64,000 nt of DNA from an uncultured Saprospiraceae bacterium (lineage in GTDB: Bacteria > Bacteroidota > Bacteroidia > Chitinophagales > Saprospiraceae): NCBI GenBank assembly GCA_938045585.1, contig CALIAU010000001.1:62001-126000 (forward strand), read 5' to 3'. Position numbers and translations under genes: made by a program. Shown here piece after piece: positions 42,680 to 53,946 of this stretch; positions within the stretch are counted from its first letter, which is position 1; every line of letters begins with the position of its first letter. Below the pieces are notes generated by a model, which was not told the DNA's origin, searched no databases, and saw only the letters and a list, made by a program, of their open reading frames with translations.

Positions 42680-43444
42680 TTAGTCGCTCTGTAACTTACT
42701 CAGTAATCGTAAGAATTCAACATACAACCATATAAGAGTAAAGAGCAGCCCCATACCAAATAGCCATTCATAATGCTTTGCTAATTGATTACGTTCCCCT
42801 TTTTCAAAATTATCAAAGTCTAACAATAGATTTAGAGCAGCAACTCCAATGACAACTACAGTTATTCCTATACCTATGGTGCCTGACTCATGGATAAATG
42901 GAATTTCAAATCCAACAAAATGTCCAACCCAACTAATTAAATAAACTAGCATAATTGCTCCTACTGCCATCGATACTCCCATTCTAAACTTATCCGTAAC
43001 CTGAATGAGACCTGACTTATATACAAGAAGCATAGTGAGTAGGGTACATATTGTTAAACTCACCGCCTGAAATAAAATACCTTCAAATTGCGCAGCATAA
43101 ATTGCTGAGACAGTTCCCACAAACAGCCCTTCCAAGATTGCATACAAAGGCGCTAGGGTAGGCGCAAAGTGCGGTTTGAAACTAGTAAACATATATACCG
43201 CTGCTCCTCCCAAAACACCCACAGGCATATAAATACTTGCCGGACTCATAAATGAGAAGACTGCTGCAACTAACATGATACCTACTAATAAAATGGTTTT
43301 ATTCACTGCACCGCTCACAGTCATGTACTCCGTAGCCTCATCAAAAGAACCACCTGTTCTTGCTTTTTCTAAAGTTTCAACCTTAGCCTTAGCAATTGCT
43401 TTATCATTTAGCATGGGGTTGTTAGATTTAAATATTCTACTCAT
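42680..43444 (-). CDS. Bax inhibitor-1/YccA-family membrane protein
   Basis: 254 residues with seven hydrophobic helices. YAILEGLFVGTVSAIYAAQFEGILFQAVSLT is the BI-1/YccA-type signature, close to the YbhL/YccA branch with a soluble N-terminal segment. In E. coli YccA binds FtsH and TMBIM relatives are pH-sensitive Ca2+ leak channels; the role here is unknown. It stands alone with its own terminator. Confidence 0.9.
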   Translation of the reverse strand: MSRIFKSNNPMLNDKAIAKAKVETLEKARTGGSFDEATEYMTVSGAVNKTILLVGIMLVAAVFSFMSPASIYMPVGVLGGAAVYMFTSFKPHFAPTLAPLYAILEGLFVGTVSAIYAAQFEGILFQAVSLTICTLLTMLLVYKSGLIQVTDKFRMGVSMAVGAIMLVYLISWVGHFVGFEIPFIHESGTIGIGITVVVIGVAALNLLLDFDNFEKGERNQLAKHYEWLFGMGLLFTLIWLYVEFLRLLSKLQSD

Positions 43445-43840: not shown

Positions 43841-46800
43841 TTATTTTACAACCACAAAACTTGTTGACTGTACTTGATTTGCAGTCTGGATCATTAGAAT
43901 GTATTTACCCGCTCTTAAATCACTAACGTCAAGCATCTGAGTGCCTTCAATTTCAAGAGCTGTAAAATCACGTAAACGCTTACCAAACATATCATAGATC
44001 ATAACCGTAGCATTGATTCTATTTCTTCCGCTCATCTCTAGGTGAATATTCTCAGTAGTAGGGTTAGGATAAATAGACATAAGCAATTCATCTTCTCCTT
44101 CAGAAACTAAGTTTTCATCACATAGTGATCCGTCACCTGGAGTCCATTCAGATGAAGAGTCTCCTTCACCTGAATATTCTAAACTATTAGATCCGGTCCA
44201 GTCCGGTACAAAGTCACCAGTTGTCCATATCCCTGCTGCTACTGCAACAGATGAACGTTGATGACCAGTACTGCCCCATTCCACATAATCAACGATGCTA
44301 TTTGAACTTCCAAAGCTATCGTCAGAATAAAGCCCCATTTCACCGTCATCACTAGATAATAAAATACCTGACTGTACAACTAGAATTTCTCCTGGATCTA
44401 GAATTAGATCATCACCGCAGACTATTATTAAGTCATCCATTAGCACATAGCTAGGGAAATCACATAACCACCATCCAGATAAATCTTGTGGTGCAAGTCC
44501 TATGTTCTTTAATTCTATCTCCGTACTTACATTGATTTCATTTATCACGATGATAGGCGCTAGATTATCGCAATCATCACCTACTACTCTAACGACTTCA
44601 ATTGGATTAGAAAGGCTAAAGCAACCCATTAGATCATCAGCGTTATTTCCTACTTCAGCACCTGTTAAACCATCTTCAAAAGATAAATGCCAAACAAGAC
44701 AAGTGCCTTCCCCAGCTCCATCAAAATCCACTTCTTCATATCCAGGTGGAAGACCTAAGATCATTCCATTCTGATCCGTTACTACCCACTGTGAGTTAGT
44801 ACCAGAATTACCTGTTAAGACGATATCACCAGTAGCAATATTGTCCGCTTCACCATCGCCTACACAGAATGTGAATGGACCACCTTCTAAGGTTCCACCA
44901 TTCGGCTGATTACGTACAACTGAAATTGGATTAGACAGGCTGAAACAACCTCCTAAGTCAGAGGCATTGTTACCTAATTCTGCACCTGTTAAATCATCTT
45001 CATGTGATAAATGCCATACTAGACAAGTACCTGGTCCAGCTCCGTCAAAGTCTACTGCTTCATATGCAGGTGGAAGACCTAAGATCATTCCATCCTCATC
45101 TGTTACTACCCACTGTGAGTTAGTACCTGAATTTCCTGAAAGTGTAATTAAGCCAGTTGCTATTGTATCTGAAACACCGTCTCCTACACAGAATTCAAAA
45201 GGTCCTCCTTCTAGTGTACCACCCTCTGCCATACAATCATCTTGACAATCATCTCCTGTTAATCTAACCACTGAAATTGGATTAGACAGATTGAAACAAC
45301 CCATAAGATCAGAAGCATTGTTGCCTACTTCAGCACCTGTTAAACCATCTTCAAAAGATAAATGCCAAACAAGACAAGTGCCTTCTCCTGCGCCATCAAA
45401 ATCTACAGCTTCGTATGCTGGTGGAAGACCTAATATCATTCCATCCTCATCCGTTACTACCCACTGTGAGTTAGTACCAGAGTTTCCTAAAAGTGTTATA
45501 AGACCTGTTGCAATTGTATCCGCAACACCGTCTCCTACACAGAACTCAAAAGGTCCCCCTTCCAAAGTTCCACCATTTGGTTGATTACGTACAACTGAAA
45601 TTGGATTGGACAGGCTGAAACAACCTCCTAAGTCAGAGGCGTTGTTACCCAATTCTGCACCTGTTAAATCATCTTCATGTGACAAATGCCATACTAGGCA
45701 AGTGCCTGGTCCAGCTCCGTCAAAATCTACTGCTTCATATGCAGGTGGAAGGCCTAATATCATTCCATCCTCATCTGTTACTACCCATTGTGAGTTAGTA
45801 CCTATATTTCCTGTAAGTGTAATTGCACCCGCTGGGATATTGTCCGCTTCACCATCGCCTACACAGAATTCAAAAGGTCCACCTTCCAGTGTTCCACCCT
45901 CTGCCATACAATCATCTTGACAATCATCTCCCGTTAATCTAACGACTGATATAGGATTAGAAAGGTTGAAACAACCCATAAGATCAGAAGCATTATTACC
46001 TAATTCTGCACCTGTTAAACCATCTTCAAACGATAAGTGCCAAACCAGACAAGTACCTTCTCCTGCTCCGTCAAAGTTTACTGCTTCATATGCAGGTGGA
46101 AGACCTAATATCATTCCATCCTCATCTGTTACAACCCACTGTGAGTTAGTGCCAGAGTTTCCTGTCAATGTTATTAAGCCTGTAGCAATAGTATCTGCAA
46201 CACCGTCTCCTACACAGAATTCAAAAGGTCCCCCTTCCAAAGTTCCACCATTTGGTTGATTACGTACTACTGAAATAGGATTAGAAAGGTTGAAACAACC
46301 CATAAGATCAGAAGCATTGTTACCTAATTCTGCACCTGTTAAACCATCTTCAAAAGATAAATGCCAAACTAAACAAGTTCCTGGTCCAGCTCCGTCAAAG
46401 TTTACTGCTTCATATGCAGGTGGAAGACCTAAGATCATTCCATCCTCATCTGTTACTACCCATTGTGAGTTAGTACCCATATTCCCTGTCAATGTAATTA
46501 AGCCAGTTGCAATAGTATCCGCAACACCGTCTCCTACACAGAACTCAAAAGGTCCCCCTTCCAAAGTTCCACCATTCGGCTGGTTTCGTACTACTGCAAT
46601 CGGATTAGAAAGGCTAAAGCAACCTCCTAAGTCTGAGGCATTGTTTCCTACTGCCGCACCCGTTAAATCATCTTCATGTGATAAATGCCACACAAGGCAA
46701 GTACCCGGTCCAGCTCCGTCAAAATCTACTGCTTCATATGCAGGCGGAAGACCTAAGATCATTCCATCTTCATCTGTTACTACCCATTGTGAGTTACTAC

Positions 46801-49800
46801 CCATATTTCCTGTAAGTGTAATTGCACCTTCTGGGATATTGTCAGCTTCCCCATCGCCCACACAGAATTCAAAAGGTCCCCCTTCCAATGTACCACCTTC
46901 TGCCATACATAGGTCTTGGCAATCATCACCTGCTAGTCTTACAACTTCAATTGGATTAGATAGGTTAAAACAACCTTCTAAGTCAGAAGCATTGTTACCC
47001 ATTTCTGCACCCATAAGTCCATCTTCAAAAGATAAATGCCAAACGAGACAAGTACCCGGTCCAGCTCCGTCAAAGTCAACTGCCTCATATGCAGGCGGAA
47101 GACCTAAGATCATTCCATCCTCATCTGTTACTACCCATTGCGAGTTTGAACCTATATTTCCTGATAATGTGATGGCACCCATTGGAATATTATCCGCTTC
47201 ACCATCTCCTACACAGAATGCAAAAGGTCCCCCTTCCAACATACCACCATCAGGCTGGTTACGGATGACTTCAATCGGATTAGATAGGTCAAAACAACCT
47301 TCTAAATCATCTGCATTCATACCCATTTCTAAACCAGAGATATCTTCATAAGCTAATCTCCAGATTAAACAAGTACCATTTCCAGCGCCATCAAAGTTTA
47401 CATTGTCATATATAGCAGTCACTGTCGGCGGAAGTCCTAGGATTGTTCCATCCGAATCAGTTATAACCATAGTTGTATTTGTTCCTACACCTGGAGTAAC
47501 CGTGATTGCTCCAGCAGGGATAAAGTCCTCTTCACCATCTCCTACACAGAACTCAAAAGGTCCCCCTTCTAAGATTCCACCATCAGGCTGGTTACGAACA
47601 ACTTCAATCGGATTAGACAGGTCAAAACAGCCTTCTAAGTCAGCAGCATTGCTACCCATTTCAGCACCCATTAAACCATCTTCAAAAGCGAGATACCAGA
47701 TTAAACAAGTACCATTTCCAGCACCATCAAAATCCACTGCATTTAAACTTGGCGGTAGTCCGAGAATAGTACCATCAGCGTCCGTAATTACCCACTGGAA
47801 GTTAGATCCTACTGCACCTGTAACCGTCACCTCATCATCAGCTATATTATCCGATTCACCATCTCCTACACAGAACTCAAAAGGTCCCCCTTCTAGTGTT
47901 CCACCATCCGGTTGGTTACGGATGACTTCAAGCGGATTAGACAGGTCAAAACAGCCTGCTAAATCATTTGCATTCATCCCCATTTCTAAACCTGAGATAT
48001 CTTCATAGGCTAATCTCCAAATTAAACAGGTACCATTTCCAGCACCATCAAAGTTTACATTATCATAAATAGCAGTAACTGTTGGTGGAAGTCCTAAAAT
48101 TGTTCCATCCGAATCAGTTATAACCATCGTTGTATTTGTTCCTAGACCCGGAGTAACCGTGATTGCTCCAGCAGGGATAAAGTCTTCTTCACCATCTCCT
48201 ACACAGAATTCAAAAGGTCCCCCTTCCAATGTTCCTGCATCAGGTTGGTTACGTACTACTTCAATCGGATTAGATAGGTCAAAACAGCCTTCTAAGTCAT
48301 CAGCATTCATACCCATTTCAGCACCCATAAGTCCATCTTCAAAAGAAAGATGCCAGATTAAACAAGTTCCATAACCAGCACCATCAAAATCCACTGCACT
48401 AATAGTAGGTGGCAATCCAAGAATAGTACCATCCGAATCAGTAATTACCCATTGGAAATTAGATCCTACTGCACCTGTAACCGTCACTTCATCATCGGCT
48501 ATATTGTCCGCTTCCCCATCTCCTACACAGAATTCAAAAGGTCCCCCTTCTAAAGTTCCACCATCAGGTTGGCTACGCACCACTTCAATTGGATTAGAAA
48601 GGTCAAAACACCCTTCTAAATCATTTGCATTCATCCCCATTTCTAAACCTGAGATATCTTCATAGGCTAATCTCCAAATTAAACAGGTACCATTTCCAGC
48701 ACCATCAAAGTTTACATTATCATAAATAGCAGTAACTGTTGGTGGAAGTCCTAAGATTGTTCCATCCGAATCAGTTATAACCATAGTCGTATTTGTTCCT
48801 ACACCTGGAGTAACTGTGATTGCTCCAGCAGGAATAAAGTCCTCTTCACCATCTCCTACACAGAATGCAAAAGGTCCACCTTCTAGTGTTCCACCATCCG
48901 GTTGGTTACGTACTACTTCAATCGGATTAGACAGGTCAAAACAACCTTCTAAGTCATTTGCATTCATACCCATTTCTAAACCGGAGATATCTTCATAAGC
49001 TAATCTCCATATTAAACAAGTACCATATCCAGCACCATCAAAGTTTACATTATCATAAATAGCAGTAACTGTTGGTGGAAGCCCTAAGATTGTTCCATCC
49101 GAATCAGTTATAACCATCGTTGTATTTGATCCAATACCCGGAGTTACTGTGATTGCTCCAGCAGGAATGAAGTCGTCTTCACCATCTCCTACACAGAACT
49201 CAAAAGGTCCTCCTTCTAGCACACCCCCATCTGGTTGGTTACGAATAACTTCAATCGGATTAGACAGATCAAAGCAACCTTCTAAGTCAGCAGCATTCAT
49301 CCCCATTTCAGCACCCATCAGTCCATCTTCAAAAGAAAGATGCCATATCAAACAAGTACCATAACCAGCACCATCAAAATCTACTGCACTTATAGTAGGA
49401 GGTAATCCTAGAATAGTACCATCTGAATCAGTTATTACCCACTGAAAATTAGATCCAACTGCACCTGAAACTGTTACTTCATCATCTGCGATGTTATCCA
49501 CTTCACCATCTCCTACACAGAATTCAAAAGGTCCTCCTTCCAAAGAACCTCCATCCGGTTGGTTACGGATGACTTCAAGCGGATTAGACAGGTCAAAGCA
49601 TCCTTCTAAATCATTTGCATTCATCCCCATTTCTAAACCGGAGATATCTTCATAAGCTAATCTCCATATTAGGCAGGTACCATTTCCAGCACCATCAAAG
49701 TTTACATTATCATAAATAGCAGTAACTGTTGGTGGAAGTCCTAAGATTGTTCCATCCGAATCAGTTATAACCATAGTTGTATTTGATCCAATTCCCGGAG

Positions 49801-50902
49801 TTACTGTAATTGCTCCAGTTGGAATAAAGTCCGCTTCACCATCTCCTACACAGAACTCAAAAGGTCCTCCTTCCAAGGTTCCACCATCAGGTTGGTTACG
49901 AACAACTTCTATTGGATTGGATAGGTCAAAGCATCCTTCTAAATCAGCTGCATTATTGCCCATTTCTGCACCAATAAGTCCATCTTCAAAAGCAAGATGC
50001 CATATCAAGCAAGTACCATATCCAGCACCATCAAAATTTACTGCACTTATAGTAGGTGGCAATCCAAGAATAGTACCATCTGAATCAGTTATTACCCACT
50101 GAAAGTTAGTTCCTTCTGCACCAGTCACCGTCACTTCATCATCTGCAATATTGTCATCTTCTCCATCACCTACACAGAACTCAAAAGGTCCCCCTTCTAA
50201 AGTACCTCCGTCTGTTTCAGTTTCACAGCAAGAGGCTGTAATTGTAATCTCATCTACATCCCATACGGATATAAGCGCGCCATTACCCACAGGACAATAC
50301 GCTAACATTTCTATATTAAATACAGTTTCCTCTGTTACAGTGAACTCAGGATTATCTGCAAAGTCAAAATCTACCTGTGTCCATTCAATATTAGTTGCTA
50401 TCCCGCTTTGTGCATATATCTCTGCACCGTCTTTAAGGACACGTACAGCGAATTGAGTAGGATAGTTATTATCGCCTGAATTTCCACCAATCCAGTCGTA
50501 TTCTGGATTTGACTTTTCATAAAATGAAAGATAGGATAGAGAACCAATACCTGAGGATCCAGGTGTGACTGTTACATCTATCAAAACGGATTTATCTGAG
50601 CCAGGATTGTAATCACAACCAGCATCATAACTTACACACATACCTTCCGAATCATTTACACCGGGAGTACATGAGTGTGAGTTTACAGTTGGGTTGACAC
50701 GATATACGTTATCTATGCTCATTATGTCACATCCCATATCAGAAGTAAATACAGGAGTAAATTCACTAAAATCTTGATTTGTTCCATTACTTGGAGATGC
50801 AGTACATGCATCCATATCAAAATATGCAGTGCTTTGCTGTGCCTGCGAGAGTTGCAGAGAAAGCAGGAAAATAAAAAAGAGGAGAATGTTACGTTTTTCC
50901 AT
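43841..50902 (-). CDS. Giant secreted repeat protein, T9SS type A, lamin-tail domain
   Basis: 2353 residues. Order: signal peptide (ILLFFIFLLSLQLSQAQ); a unique ~210-residue beta-rich region (FDMDACTASPSNGTNQDF onward, Cys-rich); 17 tandem repeats of ~110 residues (~232-2105) each starting GG-x-LEGGPFEFCVGDG and ending GCFDLSNPIEVVR; a lamin-tail-like domain (IIVINEINVSTEIELKNIG; ~2110-2260); and a type A sorting domain (SIYPNPTTENIHLEM; ~2275-2353). Each repeat has three Cys (FCVGDG, GTCLIWHL, GCFDLS). It should be exported by the type IX system to the surface. Adhesion or a structural role is likely; no enzyme motif is seen. Confidence 0.92.
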   Translation of the reverse strand: MEKRNILLFFIFLLSLQLSQAQQSTAYFDMDACTASPSNGTNQDFSEFTPVFTSDMGCDIMSIDNVYRVNPTVNSHSCTPGVNDSEGMCVSYDAGCDYNPGSDKSVLIDVTVTPGSSGIGSLSYLSFYEKSNPEYDWIGGNSGDNNYPTQFAVRVLKDGAEIYAQSGIATNIEWTQVDFDFADNPEFTVTEETVFNIEMLAYCPVGNGALISVWDVDEITITASCCETETDGGTLEGGPFEFCVGDGEDDNIADDEVTVTGAEGTNFQWVITDSDGTILGLPPTISAVNFDGAGYGTCLIWHLAFEDGLIGAEMGNNAADLEGCFDLSNPIEVVRNQPDGGTLEGGPFEFCVGDGEADFIPTGAITVTPGIGSNTTMVITDSDGTILGLPPTVTAIYDNVNFDGAGNGTCLIWRLAYEDISGLEMGMNANDLEGCFDLSNPLEVIRNQPDGGSLEGGPFEFCVGDGEVDNIADDEVTVSGAVGSNFQWVITDSDGTILGLPPTISAVDFDGAGYGTCLIWHLSFEDGLMGAEMGMNAADLEGCFDLSNPIEVIRNQPDGGVLEGGPFEFCVGDGEDDFIPAGAITVTPGIGSNTTMVITDSDGTILGLPPTVTAIYDNVNFDGAGYGTCLIWRLAYEDISGLEMGMNANDLEGCFDLSNPIEVVRNQPDGGTLEGGPFAFCVGDGEEDFIPAGAITVTPGVGTNTTMVITDSDGTILGLPPTVTAIYDNVNFDGAGNGTCLIWRLAYEDISGLEMGMNANDLEGCFDLSNPIEVVRSQPDGGTLEGGPFEFCVGDGEADNIADDEVTVTGAVGSNFQWVITDSDGTILGLPPTISAVDFDGAGYGTCLIWHLSFEDGLMGAEMGMNADDLEGCFDLSNPIEVVRNQPDAGTLEGGPFEFCVGDGEEDFIPAGAITVTPGLGTNTTMVITDSDGTILGLPPTVTAIYDNVNFDGAGNGTCLIWRLAYEDISGLEMGMNANDLAGCFDLSNPLEVIRNQPDGGTLEGGPFEFCVGDGESDNIADDEVTVTGAVGSNFQWVITDADGTILGLPPSLNAVDFDGAGNGTCLIWYLAFEDGLMGAEMGSNAADLEGCFDLSNPIEVVRNQPDGGILEGGPFEFCVGDGEEDFIPAGAITVTPGVGTNTTMVITDSDGTILGLPPTVTAIYDNVNFDGAGNGTCLIWRLAYEDISGLEMGMNADDLEGCFDLSNPIEVIRNQPDGGMLEGGPFAFCVGDGEADNIPMGAITLSGNIGSNSQWVVTDEDGMILGLPPAYEAVDFDGAGPGTCLVWHLSFEDGLMGAEMGNNASDLEGCFNLSNPIEVVRLAGDDCQDLCMAEGGTLEGGPFEFCVGDGEADNIPEGAITLTGNMGSNSQWVVTDEDGMILGLPPAYEAVDFDGAGPGTCLVWHLSHEDDLTGAAVGNNASDLGGCFSLSNPIAVVRNQPNGGTLEGGPFEFCVGDGVADTIATGLITLTGNMGTNSQWVVTDEDGMILGLPPAYEAVNFDGAGPGTCLVWHLSFEDGLTGAELGNNASDLMGCFNLSNPISVVRNQPNGGTLEGGPFEFCVGDGVADTIATGLITLTGNSGTNSQWVVTDEDGMILGLPPAYEAVNFDGAGEGTCLVWHLSFEDGLTGAELGNNASDLMGCFNLSNPISVVRLTGDDCQDDCMAEGGTLEGGPFEFCVGDGEADNIPAGAITLTGNIGTNSQWVVTDEDGMILGLPPAYEAVDFDGAGPGTCLVWHLSHEDDLTGAELGNNASDLGGCFSLSNPISVVRNQPNGGTLEGGPFEFCVGDGVADTIATGLITLLGNSGTNSQWVVTDEDGMILGLPPAYEAVDFDGAGEGTCLVWHLSFEDGLTGAEVGNNASDLMGCFNLSNPISVVRLTGDDCQDDCMAEGGTLEGGPFEFCVGDGVSDTIATGLITLSGNSGTNSQWVVTDEDGMILGLPPAYEAVDFDGAGPGTCLVWHLSHEDDLTGAELGNNASDLGGCFSLSNPISVVRNQPNGGTLEGGPFTFCVGDGEADNIATGDIVLTGNSGTNSQWVVTDQNGMILGLPPGYEEVDFDGAGEGTCLVWHLSFEDGLTGAEVGNNADDLMGCFSLSNPIEVVRVVGDDCDNLAPIIVINEINVSTEIELKNIGLAPQDLSGWWLCDFPSYVLMDDLIIVCGDDLILDPGEILVVQSGILLSSDDGEMGLYSDDSFGSSNSIVDYVEWGSTGHQRSSVAVAAGIWTTGDFVPDWTGSNSLEYSGEGDSSSEWTPGDGSLCDENLVSEGEDELLMSIYPNPTTENIHLEMSGRNRINATVMIYDMFGKRLRDFTALEIEGTQMLDVSDLRAGKYILMIQTANQVQSTSFVVVK
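44587..50209 (-). repeat. Array of 17 ~330-bp coding repeats
   Basis: Counted by the EGGPF block, there are 17 copies. Three classes are seen: A (NIADDEVTVTG...NFQWVITDSDG), B (FIPAGAITVTPG...TTMVITDSDG plus extra AIYDNVNFDG) and C (GLITLTGN...NSQWVVTDEDG). From the N-terminus the order is A B A B B A B A B then eight C copies. C copies are joined by NQPNGG or by a DDCQDDCMAEGG linker, the last four alternating in a two-repeat unit. Confidence 0.9.
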
Positions 50903-51495: not shown

Positions 51496-53946
51496 ATGAA
51501 ACCAATAATATCTCTTTTCTACATTCTTTCTTTTAGTTTGTCCATTACTGCCCAGAGCTCAAGTATCTCAGGTAAACTCTTAGATAATACGGGGGAGCCT
51601 GTCATTTATGCCAATGTGGTTCTGTATGCTGCCATAGATTCTACTCTTGCAAAGGTAGAAACGACAAACGATTCTGGTGATTTTAGTTTTCAGGCTTTAA
51701 ATCCGGGCAATTACTATATCATGGCTAGCTATATTGGCTTGCAAGATGCACAGGTAGATGCTCTTAGCCTTACAGAGGATGAGGATAAAAAATTAGACGC
51801 AATAGAAATGACTGCCACCTCTTTTCAATTAGAAACAGCAACGGTGACTGCTAGAAGAGCTATGGTTGAGGTAAAAGCAGACCGTACCGTATTTAATGTG
51901 CAAGGAACAATCAACAGTACAGGCGATAATGGTCTGGACTTGCTGAGAAAAGCGCCTGGCGTGCTTATAGATAATAATGATAATGTGACCGTATTAAGCA
52001 GATCTGGTGTTCTCTTCTACGTAGATGGTAAGCGTATACCTCTAAGCGGAGAGGATTTGACTAACTACTTAAGAAATCTGAGAGCGGAGCAAATTGATCG
52101 TGTAGATATTATTACCAATCCAGGAGCAAAATATGAGGCACAAGGAAATGCAGGAATCATTGATATTCGTCTCAAGAAAAATGAAAATCATGGCACAAAT
52201 GGATCAATCTCTTCTACGACAACTAAGGCTACATACTGGTCGCAAAACCTAAATTTGAATGGTAATTTTAGAAATAGCAAACTCAATAGCTACGCCCAAT
52301 TAGGGGGAGGACTTGGTAAACGAGCAAATACCATGTTCTTTACTGATAATGTTGCAAACAATAGAATTGTCAATAATTTTTCTTCAAGCGATGAGAATAA
52401 TAACGTGAATTATAGATGGGGTACAGATTTTTTCATTGCAAAAAACCAAACTGTTGGCTTTATACTAGGTGGTGGGTTTACGGATAATGAATCTCTATCT
52501 GATTCTGATAATTCTATTGCGAATAGAAGCACTCCACAGCAGATTGATAGTATCCTACTCGCGGATAATACAGGAGATGCTCAAAGACAAAACCAAAGTT
52601 TCAACTTGAACTATGCCTACGATACAAAAGAAAAGACCTTTAATATAGATGTCGATTATGGACGTTATAGAAATGAGTCAGATAACTTTCAACCAAATCA
52701 ATATTTTACAGCGGATACAGTAACACTCTTGAGAGAAATTAATACCGCAATTAATACACCTGTTGATATTGATATTTATACGCTGAAATTAGATTATGAG
52801 ATGACTGCAGGCAAGGGAAGATTGGGTTTTGGAAGTAAATTATCTAGGGTTGCAACGGATAATACCTTTCTGTTTTTTGATATTCCAGCTTCAGATCGCA
52901 TCCAGAATAATTTTAAATCGAATCAGTTTTTCTATGACGAGAATGTATATGCGGGCTATGTTTCCTACTCAGCAAGCATTAATGATAAATGGAGCTATGT
53001 GTCTGGTCTACGTTTAGAACAAACAGATGCCACTGGAAATTTAGAACCCTTTGATGTCAGTTTGCAAGAAGATCCTGTGGAGCAAAACTACCTGAGTTTT
53101 TTCCCTAGTGCTGGATTAACCTGGCAAAAAAGTAGGATGGAACAATTTTCATTGAACTACAGTAGACGTATTAATAGACCCGATTATAATGTTTTGAATC
53201 CTTTTAGAAATCAATTAAATGAGCTGTCTTTTAGTACTGGTAATCCATTCCTCCAACCAGAGATAGTGAATAATCTGGAACTTGGGTTTTTGTGGAAATA
53301 TAGATACAATTTCAAACTTGCTTACAGCAGAACCACTGATCAGATTACGCGATTGATCGGTGTAGATACTACGGATGATAGAGCCCGTTTTATTAATTGG
53401 GATAACTTAGCAGTGCAGACGGTTATAAGTGCAAACGTAAGTTTACCCATCCAATTTGCTTCTAGATGGTCTGCCTTTTTCAATCTTTCAGGATCTTATC
53501 TAACGAATGAAGCAGACTATGGGGATGCAGGGGTAATTGATTTAAGTGCGTGGAATTATAACATCTTCCAGCAACATTCTCTAACACTAGGGAAGGGTTA
53601 TATTGGGGAGGTCTCTGGATGGTTCTCAGGCCCAGGAATCTGGGGAGGTACCTTTGAGTATGATACAAGTTGGTCTCTAAATCTGGGACTTCAAAAGAAA
53701 TTCTTGGAAGATAAGCTCAATGTTAGATTGAGTGCGCAGGATATTTTTAATCAAGCACACTGGAGTGGACGTTCTGTGTTTAATGGTCTAGAATCTGAAG
53801 GAATAGGATACTGGGATTCCAGAAGAGCTTCAATAAGCCTGAATTACAATTTTGGTAACTCCAAGGTAAAGTCTAGGAAAAGAAAGACGGGTAATGAAGA
53901 CGAGGAAAAGAGAACTGGTGGAGGCAATTCAAATGCCGGAGGATAA
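51496..53946 (+). CDS. Outer-membrane barrel receptor (CarboxypepD/plug/OMP_b-brl type)
   Basis: 816 residues with signal peptide (LFYILSFSLSITAQ). A carboxypeptidase-like regulatory domain (ISGKLLDNTGEPVIYANVVLY), a plug (NGLDLLRKAPGVLIDNNDNVTVLSRSGVLFYVDGKRI) and a long barrel follow, with INRPDYNVLNPFRNQLNELSFSTGNPFLQPE typical of the 'outer membrane beta-barrel family protein' class. The protein ends with a basic, Gly-rich tail (SRKRKTGNEDEEKRTGGGNSN), which is unusual since barrels normally end in an aromatic residue. The ligand is unknown. Confidence 0.9.
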   Translation: MKPIISLFYILSFSLSITAQSSSISGKLLDNTGEPVIYANVVLYAAIDSTLAKVETTNDSGDFSFQALNPGNYYIMASYIGLQDAQVDALSLTEDEDKKLDAIEMTATSFQLETATVTARRAMVEVKADRTVFNVQGTINSTGDNGLDLLRKAPGVLIDNNDNVTVLSRSGVLFYVDGKRIPLSGEDLTNYLRNLRAEQIDRVDIITNPGAKYEAQGNAGIIDIRLKKNENHGTNGSISSTTTKATYWSQNLNLNGNFRNSKLNSYAQLGGGLGKRANTMFFTDNVANNRIVNNFSSSDENNNVNYRWGTDFFIAKNQTVGFILGGGFTDNESLSDSDNSIANRSTPQQIDSILLADNTGDAQRQNQSFNLNYAYDTKEKTFNIDVDYGRYRNESDNFQPNQYFTADTVTLLREINTAINTPVDIDIYTLKLDYEMTAGKGRLGFGSKLSRVATDNTFLFFDIPASDRIQNNFKSNQFFYDENVYAGYVSYSASINDKWSYVSGLRLEQTDATGNLEPFDVSLQEDPVEQNYLSFFPSAGLTWQKSRMEQFSLNYSRRINRPDYNVLNPFRNQLNELSFSTGNPFLQPEIVNNLELGFLWKYRYNFKLAYSRTTDQITRLIGVDTTDDRARFINWDNLAVQTVISANVSLPIQFASRWSAFFNLSGSYLTNEADYGDAGVIDLSAWNYNIFQQHSLTLGKGYIGEVSGWFSGPGIWGGTFEYDTSWSLNLGLQKKFLEDKLNVRLSAQDIFNQAHWSGRSVFNGLESEGIGYWDSRRASISLNYNFGNSKVKSRKRKTGNEDEEKRTGGGNSNAGG

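Follow-up and report, generated by a model that had tools for sequence, protein, structure and literature searches.

The architecture of the locus

The locus raises the question of what kind of protein is built from a long array of cysteine-bearing repeats in a member of the Saprospiraceae, and of how such an array is held together. The window, i.e. the whole stretch of 64,000 nucleotides that was analysed, contains one intact gene of this kind, placed between two conserved flanking genes (Table 1). The original prediction had called its product a surface protein, and this is supported by a T9SS type A sorting domain that exceeds the cut-off of both libraries searched (PF18962, 45.4 bits against a cut-off of 27; TIGR04183, 38.8 bits against 23), together with the SprA translocon in the same genome (SprA_N, E 1e-120). 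With SprA encoded and type A sorting domains numbering at least 150 in this genome, the machinery for export is present.

Table 1. Features of the giant repeat protein gene and its flanks in the window
Feature	Position	Strand	Remarks
ORF of the giant repeat protein	43841..50902	-	2353 aa, intact, uninterrupted
Signal peptide	50837..50902	-	Residues 1-22 (MEKRNILLFFIFLLSLQLSQAQ); putative, clear by eye in the translation
N-terminal domain (N-domain)	50210..50836	-	Residues 23-231 (209 aa); predicted jelly roll, CBM-like, putative adhesive tip
17-unit Ig-like array	44585..50209	-	Residues 232-2106; order A B A B B A B A B C C C C C C C C
A/B half	47249..50209	-	Nine units: A1 B2 A3 B4 B5 A6 B7 A8 B9
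C half	44585..47248	-	Units C10-C17; two-cysteine linkers after C10, C13, C15
Lamin-tail-domain-like (LTD-like) module	44075..44584	-	Residues 2107-2276; starts with linker DDC (C2111)
T9SS type A C-terminal sorting domain	43853..44074	-	Residues 2277-2350; PF18962, TIGR04183
Outer-membrane beta-barrel gene	51496..53946	+	Conserved flank anchoring synteny; PF14905, E 6e-93
BaxI_1 membrane protein gene	42680..43444	-	Conserved flank; PF12811, E 7e-67

The module that follows the array resembles the Pfam LTD domain (PF00932) with an E of 0.0018 and 19.1 bits, below the cut-off of 34.3, and is treated as a similarity only; in many relatives it stands at the N-terminal or the C-terminal side. The first description of the gene lacked this module, the signal peptide, the N-domain and the sorting domain, as well as the rule for cysteine pairing set out below. 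Two plus-strand ORFs (46290-47351 and 47403-48008) are antisense readings of the array and not genes.

Repeat units, classes and linkers

All 17 units start at an LEGGPF motif, with spacings of 108, 111 or 117 aa, and each carries cysteines at positions 12, 67 and 93 (numbered as in unit C14). The predicted 17 copies of a unit of about 110 residues with three fixed cysteines were thus found in the translation, in the class order that had been proposed. Amino acid identity is 89-95% among A units, 92-95% among B units and 81-97% among C units, compared to 71-78% between A and B and 62-78% between classes, and TRF scores of 2447-2926 for periods of 324/333 bp are far beyond chance. The linkers after C10 to C16 follow the order D N N D N D N, where D stands for DDCQDxCMAEGG and N for NQPNGG; the alternation proposed for the last C linkers is strict only from C13 onward, the linkers after C10 to C12 being D N N.

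The unit was also expected not to be a named domain, and no credible match reached a Pfam or NCBIfam cut-off, no named bacterial Ig-like family scoring above its gathering score in that scan. PDB sequence searches with the unit and with the N-domain gave no real match for either. Matches of the array to DUF4141, DUF3782, Inhibitor_I42 and GldD (Pfam) and to snapalysin (NCBIfam) were rejected as compositional, being short or scattered stretches, mostly below cut-off, and in most of them no single stretch was significant alone.

Distribution and copy number among relatives

A profile of the unit matched 127 of the 199 sampled genomes of the family Saprospiraceae and 6 of 297 genomes sampled phylum-wide, three of these six, the window's genome included, belonging to the same family. 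Judging from these profile matches, the unit is common in the family and sporadic in other Bacteroidota. Genera among the named matches are Lewinella, Winogradskyella, Psychroserpens, Aquimarina, Poritiphilus and Snuella; of the cultured relatives, Lewinella cohaerens and Poritiphilus flavus have arrays of units.

Complete ORFs of the same plan (N-domain, array, LTD, CTD) differ widely in length, with 3-25 units among orthologues: 25 in L094, 18 in L031, 12 in L098, 11 in L039, 10 in L067, 7 in L038, 6 in L069 and 3 in L060, the sorting domains of L031 and L069 not being recovered by single-sequence search. At the syntenic locus the species of the window has 17 units and its congener (L039) 11, each species being represented by one genome. 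The congener locus shares both flanks with the window (beta-barrel gene, 77% identical; BaxI_1 gene, 74%) and appears to be the same as that in congener genome G001, which has an ORF of the same 1684 aa.

Many relatives lack the N-domain and start with units or with the LTD-like domain. Two other arrangements were observed. In L023 (4166-10249, minus strand), repeated modules of about 700 aa make up a 2027-aa protein. Each module has a propeller-like part and a region similar to a spondin domain; two units lie between the modules, and a T9SS tail is present. In L024 (4839-7337), the LTD-like module is N-terminal, and behind it come a standard unit, four diverged units of the GAPAGECRVWGW type and a T9SS tail.

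Predicted folds of the unit and the N-domain

AF2 modelling of the A1-B2 pair, with 82 homologous pairs as input, yielded a confident two-unit arrangement (mean pLDDT 95.6, pTM 0.79), and Foldseek searches with this model returned Ig/cadherin-like sandwiches (best E 1e-4), cadherin-23 being among the matches. The predicted fold of the unit is Ig/cadherin-like.

The N-domain, for which no match was found in Pfam, was modelled together with unit A1 (mean pLDDT 91.9). Its Foldseek matches are CBM4-2, CBM51, CBM6, CBM16 and CBM35 (E 6e-5 to 2e-3), CBM4-2 being the best isolated module (E 6e-5, TM-score 0.57 by target length); identity to these structures is 7-16%, the CBM-like fold being assigned by Foldseek only. 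A jelly-roll fold alone is no proof that the N-domain binds sugars, and such binding is presumed from the model. In relatives, 25 ORFs share the conserved domain, and an alignment of 27 rows shows aromatic, Asn and Cys residues that are invariant. One 2418-aa protein (L047, 44-7297) carries the CBM-like N-domain twice, near its start and after residue 2018.

These features bear on the possibility that the protein is a passive surface coat or spacer with no dedicated adhesive tip, the N-domain being structural. A coat of this kind would agree with the many relatives that dispense with the N-domain and with a genome that holds at least 150 type A cargo domains, but the conservation of the domain, with invariant residues in all 27 rows, and its structural match to binding modules argue against it, and we consider a passive role unlikely.

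A parity rule for cysteines at unit junctions

The presence or absence of the cysteines at positions 12, 67 and 93 was scored in 390 units, in which the patterns 111 (264 units), 011 (78) and 110 (36) dominate. Cys12 or Cys93 is kept in 384 of the 390 units, and in the arrays of Flavobacteriia 110 and 011 units alternate. When neighbouring units are taken together, Cys12 of unit n, the cysteines of the linker and Cys93 of unit n+1 add up to an even number at 303 of 305 junctions from 67 proteins. Under independence 63% would be expected to be even, and shuffling the order of units inside proteins gave 264 +/- 4.5 even junctions, with a maximum of 283 in 5000 shuffles. Informative junctions, those where something is missing or added, obey the rule in 78 cases out of 80, in 36 ORFs, and the code changes 114 times along the arrays of 38 proteins. 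Twenty regions from other, previously unused genomes were held out, with the rule fixed beforehand; here 134 of 136 junctions obey, against 118-120 (87-88%) for other pairing schemes, and 10 of the 12 informative ones do so. All these counts come from related homologues and arrays and not from independent events, a concern that the 114 changes and the held-out set reduce and do not remove.

The ends of the arrays were also considered. Where an array starts straight after the signal peptide, the first unit has Cys93 if, and only if, there is a cysteine ahead of it; this applies to 15 of 15 arrays that could be read (6 with and 9 without; one masked locus was left out). At the 3' ends, 42 of 57 arrays obey the rule without considering the next domain, and most of the failures precede other cysteine-bearing stretches. 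In the window the last Cys12 (C2013) is followed by one linker cysteine (C2111), and the side of the N-domain is odd in parity (8 cysteines plus Cys93). All junctions of the window are complete and hence do not inform on the rule.

Parity is a statement on the co-occurrence of cysteines and not on bonding. The topology of the fold agrees with a link between units. Strand A of an Ig-like sandwich ends at the C-terminal pole, and the loop that leads into strand G is located at the N-terminal pole. Given these positions and the DSSP string of the A1-B2 model, Cys12 of unit n and Cys93 of unit n+1 would be opposite one another where the two units meet, and from the pattern of cysteines in the sequences we infer a disulfide staple between units at each junction. 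Cys67 is nearly invariant and is the most conserved of the three. In Aquimarina (L096, 6875-13912 and 14089-16617), there are units that have lost both junction cysteines and keep only Cys67. Since it has no partner under the rule and persists in these units, we take Cys67 to be buried.

Two other pairing schemes were weighed. The rule could be real while the bonds are formed inside units (Cys12-Cys67 or Cys67-Cys93), parity resulting from the shuffling of units. The strong conservation of Cys67 would fit, as would the retention of Cys12 or Cys93 in all but a few units, as if Cys67 needed one partner. However, within-unit parity holds at 243-249 of the 305 junctions (80-82%) and at 87-88% in the held-out set, against 98.5-99.3% for the inter-unit scheme; moreover, Cys67 persists in the Aquimarina units that lost the other two cysteines, and bonds inside units would leave unexplained the linker cysteines that replace Cys12 of the preceding unit. 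We regard this explanation as quite improbable. Reverse pairing, Cys93 of unit n with Cys12 of unit n+1, is even at 245 junctions (80%) and was rejected: its permutation P is 0.0002, yet 20% of the junctions are odd and whole proteins (L098) remain unexplained.

A proposed stapled stalk with a putative adhesive tip

The reading that we prefer, with a probability of roughly two in three, is that of a T9SS-anchored fibrillar adhesin with a CBM-like tip on a disulfide-stapled stalk of Ig-like units. Its C-terminal type A domain would take the protein through the outer membrane via type IX secretion and leave it on the cell surface, where the 17 Ig-like units would form a stalk of roughly 70 nm, at about 4 nm per Ig-like domain, carrying the CBM-like N-domain outward. 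Along this stalk, a disulfide would connect the A strand of one unit, through Cys12, to the loop that precedes the final strands of the next unit, through Cys93 (C243-C435, C351-C543 and so on to C1905-C2094), and the last Cys12, C2013, would pair with C2111 after the array; in units of relatives without Cys12, a linker cysteine would substitute for it. Stapling would lock neighbouring units into a stiff rod resistant to shear and proteases. Recombination between units would change their number, which differs between species, and in this way set the reach of the tip.

It seems likely that this is a stalk design new to bacterial adhesins, in which each Ig-like unit would be disulfide-bonded through its Cys12, or through a cysteine of the linker in its place, to Cys93 of the next unit, and parity would be kept through amplification, loss and shuffling across Saprospiria and Flavobacteriia. 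Literature searches on Saprospiraceae adhesin repeats returned nothing on point, those on inter-domain disulfides in bacterial stalks returned no description of stapled junctions, and the libraries searched covered neither the stalk unit and the N-domain nor the rule of stapling.

A gliding adhesin similar to SprB, which the gliding motor would move along the cell, would come from the same phylum and would likewise be a giant repetitive surface protein exported by the T9SS. SprB-type cargo carries a type B sorting domain, though, whereas the sorting domain here is of type A, and the SprB repeat (PF13573) is absent from the ORF despite at least 88 matches elsewhere in the genome, which makes a gliding function very unlikely.

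History of the array

Synonymous divergence between the copies in the window is high (dS 0.25-1.35), indicating that the copies are old, so that recent length variation between strains is not implied here. The dN/dS values of 0.06-0.14 point to purifying selection on each unit. Synonymous divergence is greater among A copies (dS 0.49-1.04) than among B copies (0.25-0.49), so AB dimers were not amplified block-wise in a simple manner. Also, unit C16 looks chimeric, its N-terminal part being like C12/C13/C15 and its C-terminal part like C14. Of the duplication history first proposed, several rounds of unequal duplication are supported in outline by the unit tree; amplification as dimers fits the alternation of linkers within C13-C17, but not the chimeric look of C16 or the greater divergence of A.

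In the unit tree, unit 1 of the congener protein (L039) groups with A/B and its units 2-9 fall beside the C clade. This placement indicates that A-type and C-type positions predate the split of the species, and that amplifications were lineage-specific or copies were homogenised afterwards. Units of class B occur only in the window's genome, in the window itself and, at 80-83%, in a paralogue on contig C15; a search for their origin found none in a relative, the best full-length match elsewhere being 67-72%. Their presence at both loci suggests an exchange of units between them. In L031 (9353-15000) neighbouring units are 100% identical in DNA (3=4=5 and 9=10, counting full-length units), which suggests that the amplification process is still active there.

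An array inflated or collapsed by assembly is very unlikely, because, although the draft comprises 44 contigs and a second, paralogous array is interrupted by contig ends, the longest exact repeat within the window gene is 139 bp, no pair of units exceeds 93% nucleotide identity, and the array is intact between single-copy flanks. The broken paralogous array lies at the end of contig C15 (L021, 6469-8751) and at the start of contig C25 (L022, 1-2952); the two parts are probably one gene split by assembly, and in a comparison for exact overlap the contigs shared only 24 bp.

Significance and comparison with known systems

The unit described here is an unnamed stalk domain in 127 of the 199 family genomes. 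As both it and the N-domain lie outside Pfam, domain-based surveys would miss such proteins, and naming the unit would let them find many missed adhesins. The parity rule offers a prediction, from sequence only, of covalent links between tandem domains, and it constrains unequal recombination in the array. It also provides a testable hypothesis on how the stalk of a Gram-negative bacterium may withstand shear in the absence of isopeptide bonds such as those of Gram-positive pili.

Bacterial Ig-like families (Big_6, Fn3_arc and others) have the same overall beta-sandwich and give sub-threshold Pfam matches; since many unrelated families score similarly and none attains its gathering score, these matches look compositional. 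The grappling-hook protein GhpA of Aureispira (PDB 9fls, 9flu), a related filamentous predator among the Bacteroidota, is likewise a giant T9SS-secreted protein. The beta-sandwich units of GhpA have a weak fold similarity to the unit (Foldseek E about 0.03), and no homology was detected in a profile search of PDB sequences up to an E of 10; the hooks of GhpA are heptameric.

The gliding adhesins SprB and RemA are also giant T9SS surface adhesins of Bacteroidota, SprB being a 6497-aa surface filament of Flavobacterium johnsoniae (PMC9870892); the window protein differs from them by the lack of SprB repeats and by its type A sorting domain. At least 88 SprB repeats occur on contigs C1, C11, C20, C22 and C28 of the 4.3 Mb genome, whose repertoire of secreted repeat proteins is large.

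Closer in plan are the Periscope Proteins, with variable-length stalks such as those of SasG, Rib and Sgo_0707 (PMC8201768). An N-terminal domain, tandem domains of similar fold, C-terminal surface attachment and a repeat number that differs between homologues are common to both, the variation in number being known here between species, with one genome each. In contrast to these proteins, the host here belongs to the Bacteroidota, anchoring would depend on the T9SS and not on sortase, and the window copies, at up to 93% DNA identity, are below the near-identity typical of the class, 100% identical units being present only in the relative L031.

Fibrillar adhesins are defined by the combination of adhesive, stalk and anchor domains, and Por_Secre_tail anchors have already been recorded for those of Bacteroidetes (PMC8286594). 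The stalk unit and N-domain of the window protein are both outside Pfam. The protein follows the same three-part plan, with a putative ligand-binding tip suggested by the CBM-like predicted fold.
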